Shown: positions 3,301 through 63,908 of the stretch, piece after piece
Layout: every line of letters begins with the position of its first letter
Position numbering within the stretch: the first letter of the stretch is position 1
NCBI GenBank assembly: GCA_018287875.1
Contig: JAGVVL010000022.1
Location: forward strand, 2,790,001-2,854,000
Length of the DNA: 64,000 nt
Source: Nigrospora sphaerica
Lineage: Eukaryota > Ascomycota > Sordariomycetes > Amphisphaeriales > Apiosporaceae
Direction of reading: 5' to 3'
Translations under genes and position numbers: made by a program
Notes under the pieces: generated by a model
Told to the model about the DNA's origin: nothing
Seen by the model: the letters and a program-made list of their open reading frames with translations, nothing else
Database searches by the model: none

Positions 3301-3693
3301 ACCATTGGCCCCGCCAGCCATACAGCTCACAGCGACATCGACCAGTATGATGGCGGCTGCCGGAGCAAGATTGAGAGTATCCCAGCAGCGTACATGACGG
3401 TCAGCGATAGACGACCCCTTGGCGGAGGTATAACATACCCTCGGCCCAATTTCGGACAGCAATACCCCAGTCGAATTAGGCGGCACCTGCTCCTGAATTT
3501 TCCAGGTGACGCCGGGTAGACAATCATGCTAATAAGGAAGCCGGACAGGCTCGATGTGTGAACGGGAGTTTGACGGGTGCGGAGAGGACGCCGTCGAAGA
3601 ATGATGGCGAGGTATGCCTGACGAGAAAAACATACCCTGAACAGCCCTGATGAGTGGCAGTTTCGGAGAGAGCTCTGCGCACGCCGGTTCACG
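377..3693. other. Gene-free stretch upstream of ccr4
   Basis: No coding gene could be supported. The part nearest ccr4 is probably its promoter and long 5' leader. There is a TG/CG-rich simple-sequence patch at about 1459-1506, and an alternating CG tract followed by a 16-base G run at about 3166-3199. Open frames here are short, have low-complexity composition and show no recognisable domain. Confidence 0.5.
3166..3199. repeat. Alternating (CG)n tract followed by a G16 run
   Basis: About 15 bases of alternating C and G are followed after a short spacer by 16 consecutive G at 3184-3199. Such a tract can form Z-DNA or G-quadruplex structures and is also a common site of sequencing error. Confidence 0.85.
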
Positions 3694-5610
3694 ATGGAAC
3701 ACGCGGCGAACTGGACGTATCTTGCGACGCCAAACATCTTCCCTAGCCGCAAACAACCGCTAGAGTGTGCCATAGGCAACGAGATCAAGGATGGGTTAGC
3801 TCGAGGAGAAGAGGCCATGGCCTACCTGCGAGGCCGCCAGGTACATTCAGCAGCGGCTGGAGAAGACGGCAACAACAATAGCAGCGGCAGCAACAGCAAG
3901 AACAACAAGAACAGCAAGAACAACAAGAACCACAACGACCACAGGGGATTTGACGCCGTGGAAGAGAACAACTGGGGGCTTGACCTGCCTGTGCCCGATG
4001 CCGTGTCGTTCTCTTCATTCTTCCGGTTTATGGTGCCCACGATGCCCGAGTCGGGCCAGATACTGGGCGTACAAAGAAAGCGATACGTAGGCAAGGGCGC
4101 GAGCATGAGCCGAGAAAAGGACGACAAAGGGCATGACGGTAGCGGAACAGGGCAAAGGAAGACAGCGGCGTGCGATCCATCCTCAGCCGGGGTCATCGAA
4201 GAGCAACTCCAGGTTTGCGGCCGGGACCAGAAACGCGGAAGAAGTCGCGATGCCGCCCGCCGTCGCGTCTGTACGCCTGCCATCGGCACCGACGCGAGCA
4301 TCAATCCCGTCCACCGCCACCGTGGTGGTGATAAGGTCACCGCGCCGCCGCCCATCGCCAGCACCTGCACCGGCACCTGCACCGGCACCTGCACCGGCAC
4401 CGGCGCCAGCGTCCGAACCGCCACCTCTGCAATCTCACCAGGAACCAGGGAGGTCGAGGGCGTAGTGGCGGCCAACTGCAGCAATGCCAATGGCAGATAC
4501 GAAAGGGGGACGGACAAGGGCGACAGCGGAAGAAGAAGAAGAATAAGAAGAACAAGCAGAAGAAGCAGAAGAAGGAGAAGTGATACAAGTACGAGCACGA
4601 GCATGAGCACGAACACAAACACAAACACGAACACAGACACAAGCATGGGCACGAACACAAGCACGAAGGGTAGGGGTGATTGCGATGGCAGAAGCGTCCA
4701 GGCCGGCCCAAGCAGGCCAGGCCCCAGCAAGAACACGAACGGGGGCTCGAGCATCGCCCACGCGCGCGCCCGCGTCCGCGTGCGACCCCCTATTGATTCG
4801 ATGGCGGCCTTCGTGCTCGCGTCCGGTGCCGGCGTGGGTTGTGGTGCCGTGACGGGCTCGTCCGCTGCGTCTCGCGCGGTGCGGGCAGCCCCCCAGGCAG
4901 AGGTACAAGTAGCACCGCTGCGCGCGCCGGCTGTAGCGGTACCTCGGGCTGTACATTGCGGTACCGCTACAGTGGGAAGATGCCCCCCTCCACCCACTTC
5001 TCCATCCAATTCCTCGTCCAGATCGTCGGCTAAAGACCACGAGCGCGACCCCCGCTCTCCCCAGCAAGCACAGCAGCAGCAGCAGCAGCAGCAGCAGCGG
5101 CGGCGGCACCAACAGCAGCACCATCTACAGCAGCACCATCTACAGCAGCACCATCTACAGCAGCAGCCGCGGTACCACCAACACCACCAACAGGCCCCCC
5201 CTTCTCCTCACCACCACCAACGCAATCACATCCACACCCATGCCCCGTCGCTCTCTTACTCTTTTTCCACTTCCCCCTTCTCCTCCCTCGCCCTCTCCTG
5301 GCCATTTTCCCCTCCAGTCGCGGGGTCTCCCACCGCCGCTGCCACTGCCACTACCAGTGCTGCGGTCGCTCTCATTGATTCCCGGCCCTCTGTCACCGAC
5401 ACCGAAACCGAAACCCGTTCCAAACGCCACCCGCCGCCTGTGCTTGCCCACGCCGTCGCCCAGAACCCCAACCGCCACGTCGGTGGCGGTCACGGCCAGC
5501 GACTGACCCGGCAACTGCACAACACTCATCAGCACCACCATCTCCCCTCCAACTCCACAGCCCCTAACCATCGAACCCACGTGCCTCGCCGTCTTCTCGC
5601 GGCCCCGCCG

Positions 5611-5645
<35 letters not shown>

Positions 5646-7422
5646 TTCTTCTTCTTCGTCGTTGCCTTCGTCGCCGCTGCTGCTGCCACTGCCGCCGCCG
5701 CCGTCGCCTGCCCCTGTCGCTTCTGCCCCAGGCACGGCCCTTGTGTTCTCTTGCCCTGCTCCTGCGACCGAGACTGGTCATTGTCGTCAGCCAAGTCCCA
5801 AGACCACTGCCGACACCACCACCATCACCTCCTCATCCTCGACCGCCCACGCCTGCGTGCCGGCCCGTCGTGGGGCGCAATCGCCGGTAGCCAGCTATTC
5901 TTACCCAGCATTAAATTCGCCCGCGGCCACTACAGCTTGTGCCAAGAGCGAGCAGCCGCCACGCGCTCCTCCTCTCGTTACTTCGCCCCGGCTGTTTCCC
6001 TCGCGCCATGCCACCGCCACCATGACTCCTGACGAACAACACCGCGCCGACAGCGTTTCCTCCGCGTCGGTCACCACGCATTCCAATGTGGGCGTTATGA
6101 CGTCGTCCGATACGCTCCCTCCTTCCTCTACCGAGGGTTCCATAGCCGCCTCGAATGCCTCGACATCGGCAAAGCCGCGCCTGGCCGTTGGCCCGAAACC
6201 CTTGGTGATTCGCAACAACCGCACCTATATTTCCGATGCTGACCTGGCATACCCACTGCCCGTGGACCTGGCAGAGTTGCATCGCCAGTCCCTGCGTACT
6301 CTCCTCCTCTTTCAGCTGTTTGGCGGGCCCATTACCTCTCCGGCCTTTGCCGCCAAGCCCCCGGCCCGCGTGCTCGAGGTCGGCTGTGGCTCCGGCTTCT
6401 GGAGCATGATGTGTCATCGTTACTTTGACCAGCACGGCCACGGATCCATCTCCTTCACGGGCTTGGACATTGTGCCCCTCTGCGGCTCCGGGCTCGACCC
6501 CAACTCCAAGCCTGACAAGGATATGCGCTGGCGCTTCGTGCAACACGACATGCGTCGCACGCCTTGGCCGCTCGACGACGGCGAGTTCGACTTGGTCATG
6601 GTCAAGGATATGTCTTTTGCCAACACCGGCCAACTCGCCCAGAGATTCATGGACGAGTACCTACGTGTCTTGCGGCCCGGTGGAGTACTGGAGGTGTGGG
6701 ACGCCGACCACACCATTCGCATGCTTCGGCCGCACGCCCCTCCCAATCGTACTCCGGGCGCCACCATTGAAGAAGCCGACGAATACGACGAGGACGACGA
6801 GGATGACCAAGATGATTCCTCGGACGATAACGAGGAGGGTAGCGGATCTGACAATGGCGAAGAAGACCACGTTACCAGATTGGGCGCCTACCCTGTTACG
6901 GGTAACACGCCACTGTCAACACCCCTCAACCCCTTCTTAGTCGAGTATAACGGGTGGCTGAGCAAGGCCCTTGACGCACGCGCTCTCTCGGCAGTCCCCT
7001 GCACCATGACGGGGCCTGCACTACTCCAGGAGGATGGCCTCGGCGACGTGCGATCCAAGCGCCTAGCCATACCGCTTTCCGAAGTTCGCTGGGAGCGCGA
7101 AGGTGTCGGCGGCGTGGTGACCAAGGACGGCAAGACGTACATCGACAGCCAGAAAGGGAAGACAAAGGTGGGGGAGGTCAAAGCGGCCCGGGGCGGGAAG
7201 TCCCTAACACTGGCCCAGTCCGCGGTCCGACGAACGGCGCTCGAGACGTGCGTGGGCATGATCCAAGCCCTGGAGCCCCTGTTGCGCGAGAGCAGCGGCA
7301 AGAGCCAGGACGAGTGGGATGGCTGGGTAGGCAAGATGATGAACGACCTCTTGCAGCAGGGAGGTACGAGCTGGGGCGAGTGCTTAGAGATTGGCGCATG
7401 GACAGCCAGGAAGCGGAAATGA
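3694..7422 (+). CDS. SAM-dependent methyltransferase with long low-complexity N-terminus
   Basis: One open frame of 1242 codons. The last 450 or so are a class I methyltransferase. Motif I reads VLEVGCGSGFW near residue 891, followed by an LDIVP acidic motif, a DLVMVKDMSF segment and the post-motif VLRPGGVLEVWD. An acidic Asp/Glu run interrupts the domain near residues 1028-1055. This C-terminal part matches a conserved fungal methyltransferase family; the substrate is unknown to me. The first 750 residues or so are Ser, Thr, Gln, His and Pro repeats: a 12-bp unit near 4360-4406, CAG runs near 5078-5097, a 15-bp unit near 5119-5163 and TCG runs near 5612-5645. The true start is uncertain. In-frame ATGs include 3694, 4801 and 6022. 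A SYSFSTSPFSSL segment near residue 520 looks family-like, so translation probably begins upstream of it, perhaps at 4801. Confidence 0.75.
4360..4406. repeat. 12-bp tandem repeat in the methyltransferase N-terminal region
   Basis: The unit GGCACCTGCACC is repeated about three and a half times, adding alternating Cys/Thr/Gly residues in the long frame. The repeat length is a multiple of three, so copy-number change would keep the frame. Confidence 0.8.
5078..5163. repeat. CAG run and 15-bp tandem repeat encoding Gln/His tracts
   Basis: A run of CAG codons (about 5078-5097) is followed by three copies of a 15-bp unit, CACCATCTACAGCAG (about 5119-5163), encoding HHLQQ repeats. Both are in-frame coding microsatellites or minisatellites within the methyltransferase frame. 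Confidence 0.85.
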
Positions 7423-21580: not shown

Positions 21581-22262
21581 TTACCCGTCGACTTCGCGCA
21601 GATGCTTGGGCCTCGGCGGCGGCGGCGGCCCGCCCTCCTCCTCGTACTCCTTTTCAAAGGTTTCCCACATGGCCCTGTCGCGGGCGAGGCGTTTGTGCAA
21701 CTGGACGCGGTGCTTGTACTGTTGCACGCGGGCGTCGGCATCGATCATGCTGCCCAGAATCATGCCCGACATTTGTATGTACCTGTAACGCGGGGTTCAG
21801 CAGCGGGCCTCTCTCTCTCTCCCTCTCTCTCTCTCCCTCTCTCTCTCTCCCTCTCTCTCTCTCCCTCTCTCTCTCTCCCTCTCTCTCTCTCCCTCTCTCT
21901 CTCTCCCTCTCTCTCTCTCCCTCTCTCTCTCTCTCCTCTCTCTCTCTCCCTCTCTCTCTCTCCCTCTCTCTCTCTCCCTCTCTCTCTCTCCCTCTCTCTC
22001 TCTCCCTCTCTCTCTCTCCCTCTCTCTCTCTCCCTCTCTCTCTCTCCCTCTCTCTCTCTCTCGTCTCGGCGGGGTTGTGGATATCAACTTACACCTTGAA
22101 CTGAATGGTCAGACTGCGGTAGACGGGCGAAAAGACGTAGCCGGCAGCGCCCAGCAGGGCCGTGGCAGCGCCCCATTTGATGGCCCCGATGGAGCCGCCA
22201 CGCACCGCTTCCCATTGGGCCTCGCGAGCCTCGTCGCTGTTGAGGGCGTCGTGGGCCTTCAT
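21581..22262 (-). CDS. Conserved small fungal membrane protein, function unknown
   Basis: Two minus-strand exons, 22262-22093 and 21782-21581, splice at GT|GTAAGT...TTACAG|G to give 123 residues. The N-terminal half has a KAHDALNSDEAREAQW helix, a glycine-containing hydrophobic segment (about residues 23-45) and the motif YRSLTIQFKVYIQMSG. A second hydrophobic stretch (about 58-70) precedes a charged helix with an Arg/Glu-rich region, and the tail is Pro-rich. I believe similar proteins exist in other Sordariomycetes but cannot name the family. Two short membrane helices and the small size hint at an organelle membrane; this is inference. The 310-nt intron is long for this genome and mostly simple repeat. 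Confidence 0.65.
21809..22062. repeat. Higher-order CT microsatellite (14-bp unit) inside an intron
   Basis: About 254 bases of CT repeat in which an extra C recurs every 14 bases (unit CCCTCTCTCTCTCT), with one disturbed unit near 21925-21937. It fills most of the intron of the minus-strand gene at 21581-22262. The transcript therefore carries a long GA-rich purine tract immediately before the 3' splice site. Confidence 0.95.
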
Positions 22263-27012: not shown

Positions 27013-28959
27013 TTAGGACATGAGATCCTCAAGAATCGCCTCCAGCTCCTCTCTCCGAAATGGAACACTCAAGAGTTCGGTGCCCAACACGTCTTTGCGA
27101 CTGGTAATCATCTGGTGGTCGTGGAATCTGGAGGCCTTTCGTCAGCGCCAGCCAGGCGGGAGCGGGGGAAATGGAAGCAACACCGATGTGGTAACTTACT
27201 CTTTGAGCAATGTTCGGAAAGCCATTTCCGAACTGCAAATAAATTCCTCCACTGCCTTGTTGTACAGTATGCGGTATTCAATGCCAGGATTCTCACCTGC
27301 CACGACGCCCCCGTCATCCATTGCCACCAGTACCTCGCTCACAAGTAGACGGAACAGATTCTTGGCGTTCTCGGGCAGACTGCGGAGAACGTAGGTAACT
27401 CCTTCTTTTCCGCCTATGCGTCTCGCCCTCCGGCCAAGCAGCTCATGTACCTCGTCTACAACATCGATCTCGGCCGTAAATGGGGCAAACGTGGTACAGT
27501 CGTGAAAGACAAAATTGAAAGCCGACCGCAGCCCACTGTCCCAGAGCAGAGAGAAATCGGGCGTATCAGCCGAACAGATGAGCCGTACCCGCGGGTGGGC
27601 GGCCAGCTGGGACAGAATAGCCTGCATGCCCGCCTTCCGAAGAGGAACAGCATCGATAGAGTTGATGACTATGGTGATGTCGATATGATGTGAAGACAGG
27701 AGCGCCCTCACATGGTCCAATGTGGCCGAGGGGTTTCCTGCAGGAAGGCGGTACGTAGGGTCCACAGCGGCAGTGACGGTGCCGAGAATCTCGCGGATGG
27801 AGTTGTTTCGGACGTATCCATTGATAACGAGGATCTTGTTGGCTTGCGGCTCGGCTGTGTGTTTGTACACGTACTTGGCGAATTCATGAAGGAGTCGTCT
27901 TTTGGAGCCGTAGCCGTAGAGACATATGCTGAAGCCCTCGATCAGCTCAAACGACCATTGCGGGAACGACTCGGCATGCCACGACTGCAGGAACTCGAGG
28001 TCTTCAGCGTGAGGGTCCCGATAGCCGTGTACCGTGGAGAAGTACTCGTCGTGTGTGAGCAGTTGTAGGGAGGCCAGGGTGTTGCTGGACGTTTTGGTCG
28101 CACCGGCGCGGTTCTGGGCGAAGTAGAGCTCATGGGCCGGGAGGTCTCTAGGAGGCGTGGGTGATTTCTTGCGTGCCCGCGTCGACGCCCCCTTCTTTTG
28201 GCTCCCACGGGCTTTCTTTGACGGTGTCACGGCTGGGTTTGTGTTGGCCCCGGCCTCGGCATCGTGGGCCTCCTCTCCTTCGCCCAGCTCGTCCGCATCC
28301 TCATCCTCGCTGGATTCAAAAATCTGGCGGGCGATCTCGTCGTCCTCTTCATCATCTTCACTGGCGTTGCCGGTCACCGCACGCTCGATGAGCGCCCTGG
28401 CGCTCTTTTTGCGAGCCGAGCGGTCATTTCTGCGCCACTGGGGAGTCTCCCCGTCCGCCACCCTCCGTGGCCCTGTGGGGGTGACAGCGGTGCTGAGTTT
28501 TTCTTTCCGGCCGCCAGGCGTTGTCTTGGGCCCACCGCTGCGCATCACAGCGGATTCCACAAGGCGCATGGCCTTTCTATTGCGTCTTGGCGTCGTGGAG
28601 CCGCCGTGGCCATCCTGTGAGCCAGAATCTTCATCCTGCTCTTCCCCCAGCTCGTCTTCATCCTCGGTGCCCGCTGCTCGCTTCGCGGCGGATGTCTTCT
28701 TGGTGCGTCCTTGGTCGTCGCTGCCGTCATCGGCATCGTTGTCAGTGGGGACATCATAGATCGACTTCTGTTCCTTTCGCGCGCCATCGTGCGGCTGGTT
28801 TTGTGCGGCAGTGGTGTGGCTGCCGCGAAGTCTTTTGGCTGGTGATACAGGGAGGGGTGCTTCGGGTTCATGGCGAGCGGCAGCTCTCTTCCGCGCAGAG
28901 ACTCTCGTGGCGGGCGCAGCGGTGCTGGCCTCCGAGTCCACGGCCTTGCGTCGGGGCAT
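27013..28959 (-). CDS. orc2: Origin recognition complex subunit 2
   Basis: Two minus-strand exons, 28959-27200 and 27127-27013 (GTAAGT...CCAG), encode 624 residues. The first 270 are a basic and acidic disordered region with many Lys/Arg clusters and acidic runs, as usual for fungal Orc2. The conserved domain follows: HDEYFSTVHGYRDPH, QWSFELIEGFSICLYGYGSKR (a degenerate P-loop-like region) and LVINGYVRNNSIREIL, then HIDITIVINSIDAVPL. The last exon supplies the short C-terminal FHDHQMITSRKDVLGTELL segment. The protein is a nuclear subunit of the six-protein ORC that marks replication origins. Confidence 0.93.
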
Positions 28960-29628
28960 GATTAAGTTGGCCAGGTCTGCCGGAAGGGTTCGCTAGGGAG
29001 TTACAGCTGTGGTGGAACGCGCTGTCATGGCCGGCGACAGCGACAGGATGCACAAGGAGAGTCTCTAATCGACCACGAGCTTTGGGCCTCGGGGGCGAGA
29101 CAGTTGTACGGGGCCTTGTTCCTTGTTTCTAGGCAAGCGATTCGGAGCTTCCCACGGGCCGGGTCAGATCGAGGAAGCTCCGGTGCATGGGTGTATACTA
29201 GTACTCACTCACTAGGTGACCCAAGTACCTGTGGACGTGTTCAGCTTCGTGCATGACCCATTAGAATTAGAGATGGGAATTGGAAATCGCGTCAGCGCGT
29301 CGGGCGCGTCCGTGGCAGCAGGCAAGTGCGGTGGGTCCGAATCCACTTTCCATGTGCGCTTGGCCTCCCCCGGTACCTTCCAACTTGGCGGGCTTATCTA
29401 ATACAAGCTTGTTCGGCCTGCATTCACCGGGCCGGCCTTGCATCTTCGGATCTCTACCCGGACGTTACGGTGAAAAGGCTGTTGGTTCGTACGCCTACGT
29501 GTGGCCCCCCCCTCTCTCTCTGACTCTCTCAGTACAATCAATACCAGCGACCTGACCGTTGACTTTCTCATAGCCCGGGCTGCCCCAGTAAGACTTCAGG
29601 GGAGCGCAGCTCCGCCACCAGGGCCGAC
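28960..29628. promoter_or_regulatory. Divergent promoter region, orc2 / gep4
   Basis: A 669-bp gap between divergent start codons. No specific factor site assigned. Confidence 0.4.
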
Positions 29629-34391: not shown

Positions 34392-35963
34392 TTAGAGTTC
34401 CTCGCCGACGCGTACGCCGGCACCACCAACCCAGCCCTCGCGCTCATAGTAGCGGAACACCAGATCGTAATCCTCGAAATCGTGCACGATACGATCAATC
34501 CGACGGTATCCCTTAATGTTCTCCACGCGCTTGGAACGGGCAGCTCCCGCAATCAGGTCGTACTTGGAGCTCTTGGCCTCGAACAGCGTGACGCTGAAGT
34601 GCCCGGGCTGGAAAATGCCGACCACCTGCTCAATCACGTCTGACGTGGCGCGACCGTTCTGACCACCAGGCACATTGGTCTCAAATGAGGCGTAGGAGCA
34701 CTGCGGCTCCGGCGTAACGTGGACAGTAAAGTAGTGGCCCGCGTTAACGCCGTCACTCTCCGTCGGCGCGGCAGGGATGACTCCGTTGGCCGAGAAGCCG
34801 CAGGGGTCGAACATGTACGCGTCAATGCGCGCGTCGGGGTACTTGGACTTGGGATAGACGTCCGAAAGACCGCAAGCGTCCGAGACGACGGTGCCAAGCG
34901 CGTGGCCGCTAGTCGCCATGTGCGCGGCATCGGTGTGCTCCGACATGGGGGTGTGGGAGCCGTGGGGATCCGAGTCACTGCTCACGCTTTCGGCATCAAA
35001 CGTTTCCTCGACAGAGCTCTCCACGGTGCTGATGGTCTGGATGGTGGCCGTGCTCTCGGACAGGTCCCCGAGATTGTCCAAGACGTTCTGCTGGGCTTCC
35101 TTGATCTGCAGGGGGAATTCGGCGTGCGCGACCGCATTCGCGCGCTCCATGTAGAATTGCTTGGCGTTTTCGGGATCAAGATCCGTCATAAGGATCTCCA
35201 AGGTCTCGTCGTTGGTATCGCTGGGGGGACTGTGGAAGGCCGAGGCGAGGCCAGTTGGAATCTTGGTCGTTCGGGGTGCGGGTGCCGCGGCGTCCTCGCC
35301 CTCGGGCGTACGAGGCGGGGTCAGGGTCGACGGCGGCGACGTGATATAGAGGTACCAGTGGTCACCGTTCATCTTGCCTACCATGTAGGCGCTTCCATGC
35401 TCGAACGTCTCGTCGAGGAACCTGACCTCCTGGCTCCAGCTTCGGTGCGGGAGGGGCTGCTTCTCGGGATAGAGAAAGTTCTTGCGGCTGTAGAACACTC
35501 GGTAGGGGGTAGCGGCGACATGCTCGTCCTCCAGACTCGTGACGTTGTGGAAAGGGAAGCCGGCGTCGACAGCGGCAATGCGCAAGAGGCTTTGAAGACC
35601 CCGGAGCAGCGTCGTGGTGCCGCACGTCTTCAGGATCAGTTTGTGGGGGAACACGAACATGCTCGACTCGGAGAGGAGGTAGGCATCGACGTTCTCCGAG
35701 TTGACAATGGACAGCACCTTGCAGTGGACTTCATCCAGCATAGGAACCCACGTCTGGGCGGGGACAGCCTTCAGACCGTTCGGCTGTGCGCCGGCGGGCA
35801 GGGCGTCTGCGCTCGGGGCGAACCATACTTCGAGGAGCTTCTCCGGGCCTTCAAAGGCGCTCGAGGAGTCTAGATCTGCCGTGACTTCATGGTTGATCGT
35901 CAACTGAGGAGTGTCCTCAGATGGCGAAAAAGTCTGGGTGGTAGGGTTCACGGGATCGACCAT
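34392..35963 (-). CDS. spe2: S-adenosylmethionine decarboxylase proenzyme
   Basis: Minus-strand single-exon frame of 523 residues from the ATG at 35963-35961. The enzyme makes decarboxylated AdoMet for spermidine and spermine synthesis in the cytosol. The proenzyme self-cleavage site is visible as LLSESSMFVF, with cleavage expected between Glu99 and Ser100 to give the pyruvoyl group. A TCGTTTLL segment and the C-terminal GHYFTVHVTPEPQCSYASFE block are also family hallmarks. A Ser/Thr/Asp/Glu-rich region of about 180 residues (roughly 235-385) makes it longer than yeast or human enzymes; filamentous fungi commonly have such an insertion. The frame stays open upstream of the ATG to a TAG near 36059 with no other ATG. 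Regulation through a leader uORF is possible. Confidence 0.92.
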   Translation of the reverse strand: MVDPVNPTTQTFSPSEDTPQLTINHEVTADLDSSSAFEGPEKLLEVWFAPSADALPAGAQPNGLKAVPAQTWVPMLDEVHCKVLSIVNSENVDAYLLSESSMFVFPHKLILKTCGTTTLLRGLQSLLRIAAVDAGFPFHNVTSLEDEHVAATPYRVFYSRKNFLYPEKQPLPHRSWSQEVRFLDETFEHGSAYMVGKMNGDHWYLYITSPPSTLTPPRTPEGEDAAAPAPRTTKIPTGLASAFHSPPSDTNDETLEILMTDLDPENAKQFYMERANAVAHAEFPLQIKEAQQNVLDNLGDLSESTATIQTISTVESSVEETFDAESVSSDSDPHGSHTPMSEHTDAAHMATSGHALGTVVSDACGLSDVYPKSKYPDARIDAYMFDPCGFSANGVIPAAPTESDGVNAGHYFTVHVTPEPQCSYASFETNVPGGQNGRATSDVIEQVVGIFQPGHFSVTLFEAKSSKYDLIAGAARSKRVENIKGYRRIDRIVHDFEDYDLVFRYYEREGWVGGAGVRVGEEL

Positions 35964-38435
35964 CTCCGTTTCGTACTGGCACGTCGCAGGACGCGGAACG
36001 GCGGCGATCAAGGCGGAGCTGGGGTCGGACGGGTAGTGGTCGGCAAGGAGTCGCAGCTACCGCGGGACACTGACTGCCGCCCAAACGAACCTTGCGGTGT
36101 TCGTTTGAGAGAGTAGGCCCACAGGTGGGTGGGAGGCAACTCGAGGCTGGCTACGCCAGCAGCAGTGTGCAGATATGGAAAGTCAACGTCTCACGTGGAG
36201 GACGTTAAGGGGGGCGACCGCGGGGCGGAAGGAGGAAGACTAGTGACGAAGGAATGGTGACGCGGTTTCAAGGGCCTCGTGCTGACAAGCAACCGATACC
36301 TATGGTGGAGTATCGGACCCGGCAGACGAGGATATCTGCGACAGTGTTCTTTGAGGGCGGTTTGTGTAGGGCGGGAGTAGAAAGTGTGGGCTTGGCAGAC
36401 GTCTAGTTGTTCGTCTGGACGGGTGTTATCTGGGCCTGGCGGTTTGTGTATTAGTCACGGCGCCGGAAGCAAGGAGCTGGCGGCCACGGGCAGCGACCGC
36501 AGGACGACAAACGTACTTTGCTGGCTTGGAGAGGAAGCGTAGCAGGTCCGCCGGGTTCATGGAAGCCTTGGAAGGGCAGAGACGATAAGGGATCGGGTTG
36601 ACTCGCAGTCGGGGGGGAAAGATGTTCAGAACATTCGAACCGAGATCAGCAGAGCAAACAAGCAAGCGTCAACCTGGCTCGCTGGCGGTACGCGGGCGCC
36701 GGCAGGGAGAAGCAACGTGTACGTCGTCAGATGGGCGTTGCGAGGCAATGTGAGACGAAGAAGATGCAGCGGCCGAGAGCTGGCGCAAAGTAGTCGCAAC
36801 AACGAGTGTGCGAGTGGTGTGGAAAGAAGCCCCGCTTGGTCAAGAGCACGTAGGGCGAGGACTGATGGAAATTGAAGGGGAATGTTCAATAAGCAAGCGA
36901 AGCAGAGGGCGTGTCGGTGCCAGACTTTTCGATGGGCGAGGGACGGTGAGTGATTTTCCTGATTTCGAGGAAGCGAAAAGCGGCGGTGCTTGGGTCGTCT
37001 GGCACAAATTTTGGTGGGTGTGGTGGGCGATTTTTTTTTCCCTCTATTACTTACTTCCATGCATCCAAGTACGTTTTTTTTACCGGACCTGCAGCCCAAA
37101 GCTGGGACGAGCAAGGCAACGTAATAAGTGGTCTGAGGTCACTGGGAGCTGAAAAGTGGATCTGGCTGGGGCGCAAAAGACGGACGTGCACAGACGGACG
37201 CGTCTTGCCCAACCGACGGTACCATCGCATCCCGTCCATCCTCGATCATGTATGGAAAGGTAGGTACCCGAGGCAGGGACAGGTACATATGTGCTGAAAT
37301 TATGCCCGAATAACAGGCAACCATGTTGCGAGGAGTTACTCGTCCACGGCCTTCCTCGGACATCATGGTGTCGAGATTCCAAAAGGTAGCACGCGGGTGG
37401 TTTTACTAGGGAATGGAAAGATAGCTTCCAGACCGAACCTCTACCCGACCGTTTTTCTTCTCTTGCTTTTTCACCCCTCTAGTCCATACTTACAATGAGG
37501 TGGCACTACCCCGCTGCCAATGCGATGGATTCTTCAAATGCTCCCGGACAAGTAGCTCCAAATCATCCATCCCTTTCGTCCGTTACCTTTGGGCTTGCAT
37601 CATACATGCTTCTTCTTTGGGACGTATGCAAGCTAGCGAGCCTTGTTGTAGATACCGCGGCCTAGGGGATCGCCCGTGGCGGCACACGTATGCCGCCCTT
37701 TGGGAGGTTGCAGTGTCTGCCGAGAGCCATCCGAACTCGTTGGAACCTCCTCGTACCGTACAGACGGTGTTGCATGGGTTAAGCCCCGAGCGGTGACAGA
37801 CGGCCCAGCTTCCGGCATAGGATATTTGAAACAGTGCGGGAGAGCCTGCCGGGCAACATGCCCAAATCTCCCGCCAAGATGTTCGCCGTTCTTCGTCTTC
37901 TCTTATTACGGCCATGTAAGGCTCCGCTGGATCCGTATCATCCCCTTTTCCCTACGGATTGCCCCGTGCGGGTGCGCCGCCGCTGGGCAGCCAGCAAGCA
38001 TGAGGTTGGGCTCCCACGGCCGGGCAGGTTGGACAACGTCGCCCGGGGCGATTAATCGTGTTCCTGCCGATCGCGATCCCCCCAGCAGTCCGGTATCCAT
38101 TTCTACCTAGCCTCCATTGGTCACTGCTACATGCCGCCCGGTATCTGACTATGACCGCATGAATGTGTGGAATGTAACGGCGATGGCGACGGGGACGTCG
38201 TCGGCGGTCAACAACTCGAGCATGCAAGTACATAAATCCACAAGTAAGCCTGGACAAGCAGGTGATATATACGTACTTTACCTAGTACCCGCTTGGATAA
38301 TGCCCCCGGACATGGCGAACAACGCCGGCCTCAGCCCCAACCACCAGCCCCCTTCGCTTCGCTTCGCTTCGAGACACCCACACCCCGCCCTCTCCGCGGA
38401 ACCCTCCCAAGGTTGACTCGCGCTCCCGCCGTCTC
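35964..38435. other. Leader and promoter of spe2, plus intergenic DNA
   Basis: About 2.5 kb without a supported protein gene. The part next to spe2 is probably a long, spliced 5' leader. The distal part (about 37.1-38.4 kb) shows no recognisable gene. Confidence 0.45.
36513..36558 (-). promoter_or_regulatory. Candidate uORF exon in the spe2 leader
   Basis: On the minus strand an ATG near 36558 opens a frame reading MNPADLLRFLSKPA. It runs into a strong GTACGT donor near 36512. Splicing to the CGGTAG acceptor near 36058 would close the frame after about 30 codons, some 50 bp before the spe2 ATG. AdoMet decarboxylases in animals and plants are controlled by leader uORFs that sense polyamines. 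Here the uORF and its splicing are inferred. Confidence 0.3.
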
Positions 38436-46356: not shown

Positions 46357-48488
46357 TTAGGCGTCCTCCAGAATGGTGTCGCTCGCCTTCTGGCCCAGCA
46401 TGGTCGTGGGCAGCACGGGAAAGGCACCGGGGGCAATGGGGAAGACACTTCCGTCCACCACACGCAGGCCCTGCACGCCGAAGACGCGGAACTTGGCGTC
46501 CACGACGGCCAGGACATCGTCCCGGGTTCCCATTTTGCACGTCCCGACGGCGTGGTGGCCGAACGTCTGCTCGCGGATCCACTGGCTATCCTCTTCGGGG
46601 ACGGAGCAGATACCCGTCTTCGGATCGTAGCCTGACGGGCACGGGGGCTCGATGGTTTCCAAGATGGGCCCATAGGGCGCGGGGAGGGCCGCAAAGGCGC
46701 GTCTCACCCAGGCCACTGCGTCCATCATGGCGCCCACGTCCATGTCGCCGCCCGCGACGTAGTGGTTCAGGTTGATCTCGGGCGTGGCCGTCGGGTCGCT
46801 CGAGGCGATCCGTACGTAGCCGGCGTTGTTCTGCGGGCTCATCCGAGCGATGCTTCGCCAAAGCGTATTGGGCGAGTCGGTGAACAAGCCCAGATCCCTC
46901 CGGTCTGTCGGGGGCGCGAAACCGCGCAGGACGCCCGGGGGTCTACCAAAGCCGAGTCAGCATAAAGTGAGTGCCCCCGCCATTCGCCAAGGGCAGCCAG
47001 TTGGGGGTCGGGGGGTCGCTTACCCGAATGTGAGGACGTCTCGTTTCCCGTTGGGGCTGTGGTCGGTACGCAAGAAGGTGCACTCGCTATTGCCCGGCGG
47101 TCCTCGGTAAGGACCCTTGCCCTCGTACCAAAGCTCGAGGCAGGGGTCGCCCGGCGCCCCGCGGGTGCAAGAGAGCCACAGGGGGTCGTCCTGGGTGAGG
47201 GTGATGTTGACGGGGCTGTGGCCGGCGACAGGAAGCTCCTGGTTGTCACGTAGGTTGAGCCCAACGCCGGGGAGGTCGACGACGACGTCGATGCCGAGAG
47301 ACCGCAGGTGCGTGGCGTTGCCGATGCCGCTGAGCTGCAGGAGCTGCGGAGAGTTGAAGACGCCGCCCGAGACGATGACTTCCTTTCTCGCATAGGCACG
47401 CTTCTTGGTTCCCTTGGCCGCCGTGGTCGCGTTGTACTTCCAGGTGCCTTGGTAGACACCGGCGCCCTCGAGGAACTCAATCCCGACGGCCCGGGGGCTG
47501 GACTTGTCGTCGGAGAAGAGGACCCTGGTGGCCAAGGACTCGAGCTGGAGCTGGAGTCGCGATGTCGAGTTGACGGTCGAGTGGATCAAGTCCCGGGGCG
47601 ACCAGCGTCTGGCGTTGGGTTTGTGTGCAGGCAGGCCGTACGGCTCGGCCGCCTCGTCTCGAGACGGCCCTTCAAAGTTGGCGTCTCGCTCGAGATAGCC
47701 GAGCAGCGCCTCTGTGCCGTTCACGTCCCCGACGAGGCTCTTTGCAAGGGTGTCCAGCAGTGCCAGCCGGCCTGGGACCTGGTTGTAATAAGACGAGGAG
47801 CCCTGGTCGATTTCCATAAAGCCGTCGAACCCGTGGCCCGGCGTGTCCCTGGGAAGGTAGTAGTTCTTCTCCATCCTTTCGAAGACCTTACGCATCGGGC
47901 CGTGCCTGCGTGACGGGTTAGTTCCCAGCCGGCGACAGGAGGGGCGGTTCGTACTCACGACCAAGACTCATCACCCGCCAGAGCGGCAATCTCGTCCCAG
48001 TCGGCGTCGTTGGGAAGCAACGACGCGGCGGCGTTGACGATGGCACTGCCCCCCAGGGTGTTGCCGCGGGGATACCACACGCCCTTCAGGACAGCGCCGT
48101 CGGGCGCATCGGCCCCCTTGCCCACCCAGTAGCTGCCGTCCGGGAGAAGCCAGGTGAGGAGGCGGAAGCGGAGGTTGGCGTCGTCGTCGCCATGGTTCCT
48201 GGCGAAGAAGGACCACTGCAAGGTCTCGCCCCGGGGCTGTTCAAGGGCGGTCACCAGGGTCTTGATGTTGTCGCTGTCGTCCCGGCCGGCCTCGATGAGC
48301 AGCACGCTGTGGCCGGCAAGGGCTAGGTTGCTCGCCACGACGCCGCCGCCCGGCCCGCTGCCCACGACAACATAGTCGTAGGTGGTGGCCGCGTCGGGCG
48401 CGCCCTGCGGCAGGGCGAGGGCCGGCAGAGCCACAGAGAGGGTGAGGGCCGACAAGGCGCGCACGGCGACGCTGGACCGGAAGAACAT
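46357..48488 (-). CDS. Secreted GMC oxidoreductase (AA3-type)
   Basis: Three minus-strand exons, 48488-47959, 47905-47024 and 46942-46357, give 665 residues. Residues 1-26 are a typical signal peptide ending in ALALPQG. The ADP-binding motif is YDYVVVGSGPGGGVVASNLA, followed by VLLIEAG and the GMC signature GNTLGGSAIVNAAA. The second GMC signature is VIVSGGVFNSPQLLQLSGIG, and the catalytic region FGHHAVGTCKMG lies near the C-terminus with VVDGSVFP. These are marks of glucose-methanol-choline flavoenzymes that oxidise alcohols, sugars or aryl alcohols outside the cell. Several N-glycosylation sequons are present. The substrate is unknown. It is divergent from the rhodopsin-domain gene. Confidence 0.9.
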
Positions 48489-50074: not shown

Positions 50075-51484
50075 ATGGCCGTCCCTCGTGCCCTCCAATG
50101 GTTGGCGGCCAGGCTGGACTCGCCCGACGCGCCCGGTCCGCCTCCTCCCGCCTCTTCTCCGCTCGACTTTTCGAACTATCCCAGCTCCGGCTTGCAGCAG
50201 TTCGGCTTCTTCGTGCTGTTCTCCTTCCCCGCTCTCTCTCTCCTCGTCGTGGCCCTGCGCCTGTACGGCCGCCTGTCCACCAAGACGTTCGGATGGGATG
50301 ACGTGTTTATCATTCCCGCCTTGGTAAGTTGGGTTCAGAGGGGACTCGGTCGTGGCCCTGAGCACCACCGCCTGTTCCGGACCGAAGAGGCTAACGCATG
50401 CTGCGGCCCGCCAGTTGACCGCCCTAGCCGAGGCCGTGTGCTCCTATCTCATGATGAGGCTGCTCTTCATCGGGGTCCACGCCAGTGACATACCCGTCCC
50501 CAGGCCGAAGACGGGGAACCTGGCCGGCATCATGAACTACGTCGTCGTCATGCTGTACAACCCGCAGGCAAGCAACCAAAGGTGCTAAAAGGCGGATAGG
50601 ATGCTGACCGTCAAGCAGCTGGGCCTCGTCAAGTCGTCGGTCCTCTTCTTCCTGCTGCGTTTGGGCGGACAAAAGACGATTATCCGGTGGTCGATACACA
50701 TCCTGAATATTGTCAACCTTGCCATGCTGGTGGCCGTCTTCGTGGCCTCCGTCTTTACCTGCGTACCCATTGCCAAGTACTGGGACAGGTCCATCGACGG
50801 CCGTTGCAACAACAAGGGGCTGCAGTACATCGTTACCTCGTCCATCACCGTGCTGACGGACGTGGCCGTACTGGTGCTGCCCTTCATCATCGTGGTCGGC
50901 CTTCAGCTGCCCCGGCGGCTCAAGATCGGCCTCCTTACGCTGCTGTGTTTGGGCCTGATGTAAGTTCAGCTGCCGCCGCTTCCACCCGCCGTGAGGCCGG
51001 ACTGACATGGAGCAACAGTGCGACCGTCTTCAGCGTGCTCCGGCTCTTGATGCTGGTTCGCCTGCACTACGGCACCGCGGGCCCCGACTCGACGTACAAT
51101 ATCGACTTCGTCTACTCCACCGTCGAGTGCAACCTGGCCATCATCTGTGCCTCGATCCCCGCCCTGTCCAACCTCCTGAAGCAGTGGTGCCCTCGCTTCT
51201 TTACCAAGGCGAGCGGTGCCGAGGCCGGCATGCCCTACCTGGAGGGGACCGACTATAGCGGCTCGGGCGCGACGAAGACCATTGGCGGTACGTCGATGGT
51301 GCTCAAGACCATCAGGATGGGTCCCGGCCGCAGCGGCTACCTGCGGAAGAAAAGCCTGACCAGAAGCGAAGAGGACATACTCGGCGTAGACCGGCTTGCC
51401 CGGGCTTTCGAAGACGACATGACAACTGACGACCGACACGCTCCCCACGAGGACGTGCACCTGCCTTGTTATTATCCGAAATAG
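50075..51484 (+). CDS. Fungal rhodopsin-domain integral membrane protein (Pth11/SAT4-like)
   Basis: Four exons: 50075-50323, 50415-50567, 50619-50959 and 51019-51484, giving 402 residues. Seven hydrophobic helices are visible from about residue 40 to 295, with family motifs FGWDDVFIIPAL, YNPQLGLVKSSVLFFLLRL, CVPIAKYWD and VYSTVECNLAIICASIPAL. This is the fungal rhodopsin-like domain found in Pth11-type receptors and in the SAT4 family. No CFEM domain is present. The second intron (50568-50618, 51 nt) has a GC donor, AG|GCAAGC. It restores the family motif YNP.LGLVK, and no GT alternative keeps frame. The cytosolic tail is Lys/Arg-rich. Signalling or accessory cluster membership is inferred. 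Confidence 0.88.
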
Positions 51485-62414: not shown

Positions 62415-63908
62415 TTACCGGATGCCGTCCACACCGTCGAGTACCACCTTCTTCCCTATCACGTCGATGTTGGACTGGAAGAAGCAACGCCCTTCGGGGC
62501 AGTCGGCGTGGAAAACAATGCTGCTGCCGTCCACCACGGGGGTGGCGCCGCCGGGCGCCGTCAACCCGAAAGCATCGTTGGTCCGGACCAACGGCCCGCT
62601 GGGGCTTCTGGTATACGGGCCCTTCACGCTGTCGGCCACGGCGTAGTCAACGTTGTACGTTGGCGACGTGAAACACCCCGAACTGAAGAACAGAACGTAT
62701 ACCCCGTCTTTGGTGCGAAGCAAGCTGGGCGCCTCCACCAGCGGCCCATCGACGTCCTCGCGGTCCAGAATCTGGATGGGATCGCCGATCTTGGTGAGGC
62801 CGTCTTGTCCCACTTCTTGAAGAAGGATGGGCGTCGGGACAAAGGGCGCGATGCCGTTCAAGCAAAGTCCTCCGCGTCCAATCGAGTTTCCGTCAATCTT
62901 GTAGACAACATAGCGTTTCCCGTCCGCGTCTTGAAAGCCAGCAGGGTCAATCGAGCCGCCGACCCTGACGTCGCAAGCAAACGGTTCCTCCGACGGCGTG
63001 TAGGGCCCCAAAATGGTCTTGGCCGTTGCGGTTCCGATGCAGTGATGTGCTGGCGATGCTTTGACCTGACCTGAGAAATACATGACGTAAGTTCCGTCGT
63101 CCATGCGACGAATGTCCGGCGCCCATGTGTTCATGTTGTTTGTCCAGGGGCCATCATCGGGGAGGAGGTCGACATCGAGCCACTTCCAGGGCCCTCGCGG
63201 ATGAGATGATTCGGCTGCTTGGATGTGTTTCCCGTTTCCAGCCGTGGCAAAGGCGTACCATGTACCGTCCACGTCCTGAAGAATCGAAGGATCTGGAAAG
63301 TCGGTTGCGATCTGTGGGCTTGGACTCGACCGGCGCCAGAGGGGCATCTGATCCGACGGCGCCTGGGTGGCTAATGTTTCATTGAAAGCCGACGTTCCAT
63401 TCAACGCCGTGGTGCCATTGAAGGACACGGTGGCGTTGAAAGTTGTGTCACCCCTGAAGACCGCGGTTCCGTTGCGGATCGAGGTCCCGTTGAGAGTGGT
63501 GGCCACGTTGAAAGCCGGCGTCCCATTGAAAGCTGTAGTCCCATTGAAAACCGCAGTCTCGTTGAGAGCTGCAGTTCCGTTCCAAAAACGCGTACTGTTC
63601 CAAGACGCCGTACCATTGGGGAATAGGGTGGCATTGAGCATGGTAGAGCCGTTGAAGGAAGTTGTGCTGCTCAGGGCTGTGGTGCCGTTATAACGGGATG
63701 TGAAATTCAGCGCCATGGTTCTGTTGGAACCCGATGTTCTGTTGAAGAGCGCGGTCTCGTTGAAAATCGAAGTGCCATTGAGAGCGCGCGTCTTGTTCGT
63801 GGCAACACATGGGTCGAATGGCAGTTCGTTCGTAGTAGGGGCTGCCCGCGCCAAGGCGAGCAACGCCGGGGCTACGGCCAGAATTACGACAGTGCCCTTC
63901 ATGACCAT
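62415..63908 (-). CDS. Secreted GH43-type glycosidase with N-terminal hexapeptide sequon array
   Basis: Minus-strand single-exon gene of 497 residues from the ATG at 63908 (the ATG at 63902 is an alternative). Residues 1-23 are a signal peptide. Residues about 37-179 are 24 hexapeptides with Asn at every sixth position. A short linker leads to the five-bladed propeller domain of glycoside hydrolase family 43. Candidate catalytic residues are Asp206 (ATDFPDPSI, general base), Asp321 (GGSIDPAGF, pKa modulator) and Glu392 (LVEAPSLL, general acid). NTWAPDIRRMDDGTYVMYFSG is also typical. The family cleaves arabinan or xylan side chains; subfamily unknown. The catalytic domain looks complete. Confidence 0.87.
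   Translation of the reverse strand: MVMKGTVVILAVAPALLALARAAPTTNELPFDPCVATNKTRALNGTSIFNETALFNRTSGSNRTMALNFTSRYNGTTALSSTTSFNGSTMLNATLFPNGTASWNSTRFWNGTAALNETAVFNGTTAFNGTPAFNVATTLNGTSIRNGTAVFRGDTTFNATVSFNGTTALNGTSAFNETLATQAPSDQMPLWRRSSPSPQIATDFPDPSILQDVDGTWYAFATAGNGKHIQAAESSHPRGPWKWLDVDLLPDDGPWTNNMNTWAPDIRRMDDGTYVMYFSGQVKASPAHHCIGTATAKTILGPYTPSEEPFACDVRVGGSIDPAGFQDADGKRYVVYKIDGNSIGRGGLCLNGIAPFVPTPILLQEVGQDGLTKIGDPIQILDREDVDGPLVEAPSLLRTKDGVYVLFFSSGCFTSPTYNVDYAVADSVKGPYTRSPSGPLVRTNDAFGLTAPGGATPVVDGSSIVFHADCPEGRCFFQSNIDVIGKKVVLDGVDGIR
63375..63797 (-). repeat. 18-bp coding tandem repeat (hexapeptide N-x-T array)
   Basis: Twenty-four consecutive 18-bp units within the GH43 gene encode F/L-N-G-T-T-A-like hexapeptides. 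Asn falls at residues 38, 44, 50 and so on to 176 without any change of register. Only positions 80 (Ser) and 152 (Arg) are substituted, and Asn134 has lost its Thr. Twenty-one units keep an N-x-S/T sequon. Confidence 0.95.

Follow-up and report, generated by a model that had tools for sequence, protein, structure and literature searches.

A predicted secreted glycoside hydrolase of family 43 (GH43) of Nigrospora sphaerica carries, ahead of its catalytic domain, an array of 24 six-residue units, most of which are N-glycosylation sequons (N-x-S/T). Judging from its sequence and that of its relatives, this array is probably a greatly expanded, N-glycosylated pro-region that aids the secretion of the enzyme and is cut off by Kex2. 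The gene lies in a stretch of 64,000 nucleotides, hereafter called the window, whose features are collected in Table 1; ten open reading frames (ORFs) were also searched against Pfam, and the five with a match are included.

Table 1. Coordinates of the GH43 gene, of its parts and of other ORFs of the window with Pfam matches
Feature	Position	Strand	Basis or remark
Single-exon CDS, 497 aa plus stop: signal peptide, pro-region with array, GH43	62415..63908	-	ORF list, translation
Signal peptide, residues 1-23, cleavage near ARA/A	63840..63908	-	Predicted by sequence inspection
Inferred pro-region, residues 24-193, enclosing the array	63330..63839	-	
Array, 24 six-residue units, residues 36-179	63372..63803	-	22 in-phase Asn, 21 sequons, 20 NXT
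R192-R193, P2-P1 of LWRR (residues 190-193), Kex2-type site	63330..63335	-	Alignment with nearest relatives
GH43 catalytic domain, residues 197-491, without sequon	62436..63320	-	Pfam PF04616, E 1.3e-31
Methyltransferase-domain protein, short tandem repeats in ORF	3622-7419	+	Pfam
ORC2	27199-28992	-	Pfam
S-adenosylmethionine decarboxylase	34395-36056	-	Pfam
GMC oxidoreductase	47023-47967	-	Pfam
Fungal rhodopsin domain	50600-51481	+	Pfam

The start codon is an ATG at position 63908, with an in-frame stop 132 bases upstream and no Met codon between the two. One of the two closest relatives, P0001, as listed starts approximately 30 residues earlier than the window protein; given this upstream stop, the start of P0001 may be over-called. 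A segment resembling MKGT...AAPTT at the signal peptide is also found in P0001 and in the other close relative, P0002. The preliminary description of this gene had called it a signal-peptide protein with a GH43 partner for the array. Inspection of the sequence agrees with the former, and the Pfam search with the latter, with a match of 110.4 bits to PF04616 against a curated cut-off of 32.2. When run on the whole protein up to E 10, this search returned GH43 alone, with neither a wall-binding module nor a hexapeptide family. D206, D265 and E392, which we take to be the catalytic Asp, Asp and Glu of GH43, are invariant among 45 aligned sequences. We predict an enzyme of the GH43 arabinanase type; endo-arabinase/arabinanase or beta-xylosidase are the source annotations of some relatives, and for the window protein the activity is a prediction.

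Asn residues are found at positions 38+6k (k = 0-23) in 22 of the 24 units, the exceptions being S80 and R152, and N134-V-A is the third unit that does not form a sequon. The earlier counts, namely this register with two substitutions and sequons in 21 of 24 units, therefore hold exactly; the coordinates first assigned to the array (63375..63797) span N38 to T178, whereas whole units take in the slightly longer segment given in Table 1. The array sequons are the sole sequons of the protein. When the 144 residues of the array were shuffled 100,000 times, the best single phase harboured at most 12 Asn residues, versus 22 observed. In 20 of the 24 units the Asn is preceded by F, L, Y or W, and in 18 of the 24 a small residue occupies the sixth place. 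On the complementary strand, a 108-residue ORF (63367-63693, +) shows a hexapeptide rhythm of the VPLKxx type; it mirrors the array and is not a gene candidate. Elsewhere in the window, a CT repeat of approximately 260 bases (21808-22067) consists of 18 copies of a 14-base unit with 99% matches.

At the DNA level, the 18-base units have diverged: units lying 1 to 11 places apart share, on average, between 8.8 and 10.2 of their 18 bases, no pair exceeds 14 identical bases out of 18, and TRF detects only two partial arrays over the region. The register is thus exact over diverged DNA units, as had been noticed at the outset. The corollary drawn at that time, selection at the protein level, is borne out for the sequons. 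Between the 24 units, pN/pS is 0.07 at the N codon and 0.22 at the T codon, versus 0.69-1.00 at the other four positions; as the units are paralogous and their distances saturated (with a pS of 1.3 for the N codon), these values can be relied upon only as a contrast between positions. The first two bases of a codon depart from the consensus in 6 of 96 cases for N and T versus 74 of 192 for the remaining four codons (p 7.5e-10), and third bases do so in 24 of 48 cases in the N and T codons and in 46 of 96 in the other codons compared. The hydrophobic position before the Asn displays no extra codon constraint relative to the other non-sequon places (16/48, p 0.49). Change is thus resisted more strongly by the codons for N and T than by those of the other positions, and the feature held by selection is the sequon. 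In addition, 20 of the 21 array sequons are of the NXT type, versus 116 of the 180 sequons of 118 array-less relatives (Fisher p 0.003, in a test that treats the units as independent). This preference for NXT over NXS suggests selection for occupancy.

A left-handed beta-helix, or another solenoid made of hexapeptide coils, had also been envisaged for the array. The hydrophobic residue before the Asn and the small sixth residue would both suit such a fold, as would the similar conservation of the hydrophobic place and of the Asn between orthologues (see below), and the AlphaFold2 model of the array by itself (three sequences, glycan-free) is rich in strands. However, the mean pLDDT of that model is 52.5, the five models ranging from 26.0 to 52.5, and in the full-length AlphaFold2 model (45 sequences) the block-mean pLDDT values are 24-45 in the array, compared with 92-98 over residues 201-490 of the GH43 domain. 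A Foldseek comparison of the array-only model with the PDB gave no match at E <= 0.001, the best having an E value of 0.1. Together with the Pfam search, which gave no hexapeptide family, and with the ordinary codon constraint at the hydrophobic position, these results make a solenoid highly improbable: the models do not support it, and structure prediction did not yield the confident solenoid that would have spoken for it. Two entries that emerged from sequence searches of the PDB were discarded. Chain 0q of 9e5c (E 6.4e-9 with the array alone, E 6.4e-5 with the whole protein) is a long E/A/T/V/N-rich repeat whose single stretches score 9-16 bits, and we regard the similarity as compositional; 6j55 (E 0.55 with the array) is not a match.

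Among the best 120 of the 873 relatives of the enzyme (E <= 1e-10), the array is common to two, P0001 and P0002, and each of the remaining 118 has fewer than two sequons ahead of the catalytic domain. A search with array words, in which 4192 proteins of approximately 273-870 residues were scored, returned the same two proteins with E <= 0.01, and the presumed rarity of the module is thereby supported. The preliminary description had also considered that orthologues might lack the array or harbour it in random register, and here the picture is mixed: the 118 relatives lack it, and in the two closest ones the arrays (20 units and 16 sequons in P0001, 22 units and 17 sequons in P0002) keep the register, save for one five-residue unit in P0002. 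Since the other relatives have the enzyme without the array, the latter is not generally required for the former. The nearest named relatives, at 65-71% identity, belong to Neoarthrinium, Apiospora, Truncatella, Seiridium and Pestalotiopsis, and on this evidence the array appears to be a shallow, lineage-specific addition. We rejected the loss of catalytic-domain sequons as proof that the array has taken over their role: 37 of the 118 array-less relatives similarly have none in that domain, and a sequon-free domain is therefore not diagnostic.

The array evolves much faster than the enzyme that it precedes. The catalytic domains of P0001 and P0002 are identical to that of the window protein at 300 and 295 of 304 residues, respectively (97-99%), versus 83 of 120 and 85 of 131 aligned residues in the array (65-69%). 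In the three pairs formed by these proteins, the proportions of differing residues are 30.8%, 35.1% and 28.6% in the array versus 1.3%, 3.0% and 1.6% in the catalytic domain, which corresponds to a 12- to 23-fold higher difference in the array. The Asn is kept between orthologues in 16 of 20, 17 of 22 and 16 of 20 units in the three pairs, and the hydrophobic position in 16 of 20, 16 of 22 and 14 of 20; at this level the conservation of the former is not clearly better than that of the latter.

Such fast change would also be expected if the product were the freed glycopeptide itself, i.e., a peptide of approximately 170 residues with many glycans, secreted after Kex2 cleavage, which might for instance coat the surface or act as a decoy for lectins, with copy number and sequence changing fast for that function. 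The boundaries of the array, a signal-peptide cleavage site (identified by eye) on one side and the LWRR motif on the other, are in line with this reading. However, a spacer under weak constraint should change equally fast, and we consider a functional glycopeptide unlikely. In another scenario, slippage of an 18-bp unit would have spread a hydrophobic repeat without any benefit in a tolerant pro-region, and the sequons would persist solely to prevent the aggregation expected of an F/L repeat without glycans. The position in the pro-region, the variable numbers of units (24, 20 and 22), the losses of single sequons and the restriction to one shallow lineage would all be consistent with such self-addiction. 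It nevertheless seems distinctly improbable, both because the preference for NXT points to selection for occupancy and because an array that brought nothing but costs would be expected to disappear readily, whereas the three known bearers retain at least 20 units each.

To place the array relative to the mature enzyme, 121 sequences, i.e., the window protein and the best 120 of the 873 relatives, were aligned on the FPDPS motif. The 22 nearest sequences that include an N-terminus are the window protein, P0001-P0017 and P0019-P0022, the fragment P0018 being omitted. In 21 of them, P0022 being the sole exception, a [KR]R pair begins 11 or 12 residues ahead of the Phe of this motif. Among the 20 nearest array-less relatives (P0003-P0022), the pair is found in 18 of the 19 that have an N-terminus. 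As a control, [KR]R was counted in five-start windows taken from the catalytic domains, where it occurs in 2.2% (151/6830). The P4 residue is Leu or Ile in all 21 sequences with the pair, and the aligned motif reads (L/I)x(K/R)R. As only 40 of the 121 sequences have a dibasic pair at that place, it appears to be a feature of the nearest clade rather than of the whole family. Kex2 is described as favouring an R at P1 preceded by K/R at P2, with an aliphatic residue such as Leu at P4 (PMC8528282). In the window protein, R192-R193 is the only [KR]R pair of the inferred pro-region, which it ends, and no dibasic [KR][KR] pair is present inside any of the three arrays (window protein, P0001 and P0002).

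The pro-region of the array-less relatives, judged by eye, comprises approximately 10-15 residues. Because the Kex2-type pair is placed as in the nearest of them, we infer that the array was inserted or has grown within a short, pre-existing pro-region, and cleavage would remove it. As it ends just before LWRR, it is predicted to be an expanded propeptide and not a stalk on the mature enzyme. The stalk was a natural reading of the array, put forward in the preliminary description, but it is probably wrong, as a Kex2-type dibasic site, conserved among the nearest relatives, separates the array from the catalytic domain. For a stalk to exist, LWRR would have to remain unused, leaving the array as a stiff, protease-resistant spacer that ties the enzyme to the cell wall. 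The length of the array and the selection on its sequons would be compatible with that function, and dense glycans could in principle shield a nearby site. Nevertheless, the site has fitting P1, P2 and P4 residues at the place seen in the nearest array-less relatives, and GH43 alone, with no wall-binding module, was detected by Pfam, making a glycan stalk unlikely.

We thus return to the expanded pro-region, for which the following course of events is proposed. Signal peptidase would take off approximately the first 23 residues, and in the ER oligosaccharyltransferase (OST) would attach glycans to many of the tightly spaced N-x-S/T sites, of which there are 21. The glycans would keep the nascent protein soluble, offer many docking sites to lectin chaperones and help ER exit. 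In the late Golgi, Kex2 would cut after R193, releasing the sequon-free catalytic domain without the array. Over evolutionary time, the array would grow and shrink by gain and loss of units and change fast, with selection holding the sequons. STT3 is present in the genome, as is a proprotein-convertase P-domain (a match over the cut-off to positions 1-57 of 86, with one internal stop that may mark an intron). With these components and two fungal precedents for pro-region glycans, described below, we favour, by analogy, a throw-away glycan leader that would aid folding, solubility and ER exit. In a study of the Rhizomucor miehei lipase, deglycosylation of the propeptide reportedly enhanced activity, which goes in the opposite direction to the role proposed here.

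Some of the crowded sites of the array may stay unused. The sites that one OST complex is described as skipping in mammalian cells include NXS sites lying close together (PMC4750078), which would fit the NXT preference of the array, with the proviso that these data are mammalian and the host is a fungus. If the proposed mechanism is right, evolution has placed a long, tunable and disposable glycan leader ahead of a secreted enzyme through repetition of an 18-base unit, and the selection on the glycosylation site can be traced in individual codons. It would then be possible to test how many closely spaced sequons oligosaccharyltransferase uses in a row, and whether the number of pro-region glycans sets the secretion yield.

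To find similar arrays elsewhere, a profile of the three arrays was used to score the 7991 candidates sharing the most words with them, among proteins of approximately 90-280 residues. It retrieved a single protein, the hypothetical protein P0121 from Colletotrichum falcatum (235 residues, E 2.2e-5), with a signal peptide (by eye) followed by LVAR, eight N-x-T units and another domain. Its array (residues 36-82) has an exact six-residue spacing, and all eight sequons are of the NXT type, the residue before the Asn being F in six units, L in one and T in one. The units roughly alternate between FNGTAT and FNATDI, giving a 12-residue super-unit. This small, presumably secreted and otherwise unrelated protein resembles the window protein in having N-x-T units every six residues soon after the signal peptide, but its downstream domain, for which Pfam gave no family over the cut-off, is different, and its array is located after, not before, the possible LVAR cleavage site. 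Because of these two differences, we lean to convergence rather than module transfer. The genome under study encodes a homologue of the P0121 domain (C12:5757000-5757487, L016; E 5.3e-10), in which the domain directly follows a signal peptide (by eye), with no array. This homologue was matched in two frames and is probably split by an intron.

Searches of the genome for arrays, in which the best candidates were scored, pointed to only one other place, C1:1537465-1537602 (L010; E 0.0038, with an overlapping match at E 0.0855). We rejected it as a second array and regard it as a shadow frame: another frame of the same strand reads RD/RE repeats and is the likelier gene frame. The NGTA-type sequon repeats spelled by the shadow frame illustrate that short repeats in DNA are able to imitate an array of this type. 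A recurrent fungal module, i.e., a slippage-grown [FL]-N-x-T-x-x array after the signal peptide that forms a removable or N-terminal glycan brush, arises repeatedly and outpaces the divergence of its cargo, is a tentative possibility. If it exists, it would have arisen on the GH43 enzyme and on P0121, and the brush would tune how unrelated secreted proteins fold, leave the ER or behave at the surface.

The expanded pro-region can be compared with several known systems. In titles and the beginnings of abstracts of open-licence PubMed Central papers, we found no description of sequons arrayed at a fixed period, either for fungal propeptides or for GH43 proteins. KEX2-processed repeat proteins (KEPs) are described as having signal peptides, tandem repeats and Kex2 sites, features also predicted for the window protein, but their Kex2 sites lie between the repeats (PMC6339444); as the three arrays are free of internal [KR][KR] pairs, we rejected membership in that class. 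Fungal Kex2-processed pro-domain (K2PP) proteins have an N-terminal pro-domain, often without secondary structure, that ends in KR/RR or LxxR and is proposed to be a folding aid (PMC8528282). The LWRR motif at the end of the pro-region conforms to this description; nevertheless, the class was defined on effectors, and its account in that source describes no periodic sequon array.

Further parallels are pro-regions whose glycans are described as promoting secretion, those of the yeast MF-alpha (PMC12141369) and of the Rhizopus chinensis lipase (PMC4417512). Like the MF-alpha prepro leader, the window protein has a signal peptide, a pro-region with N-glycosylation sites (in this case sequons, 21 of them upstream of R192-R193) and a dibasic Kex2-type site before the product. 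However, the MF-alpha pro-region comprises 64 residues with three N-glycosylation sites and no array, and the product released by Kex2 is a peptide (PMC12141369). The R. chinensis lipase shares with the window protein the fungal origin, the nature of a hydrolase destined for secretion and a pro-sequence that harbours N-glycosylation sites, which in the lipase are removed by Kex2. As described for its production in Pichia, the glycan at N-60 of the pro-sequence is key to secretion, an effect tested in a construct with the Kex2 site removed; otherwise, Kex2 removes three glycosylated sites (PMC4417512). It differs from the window protein by its enzyme family and by a 94-residue pro-sequence with three scattered sites, of which Kex2 leaves 27 residues on the lipase, compared with 21 sites at a strict six-residue period here. 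The array would thus belong to a known kind, the N-glycosylated, Kex2-cleaved pro-region, from whose other members it differs by the periodic arrangement of its sequons.
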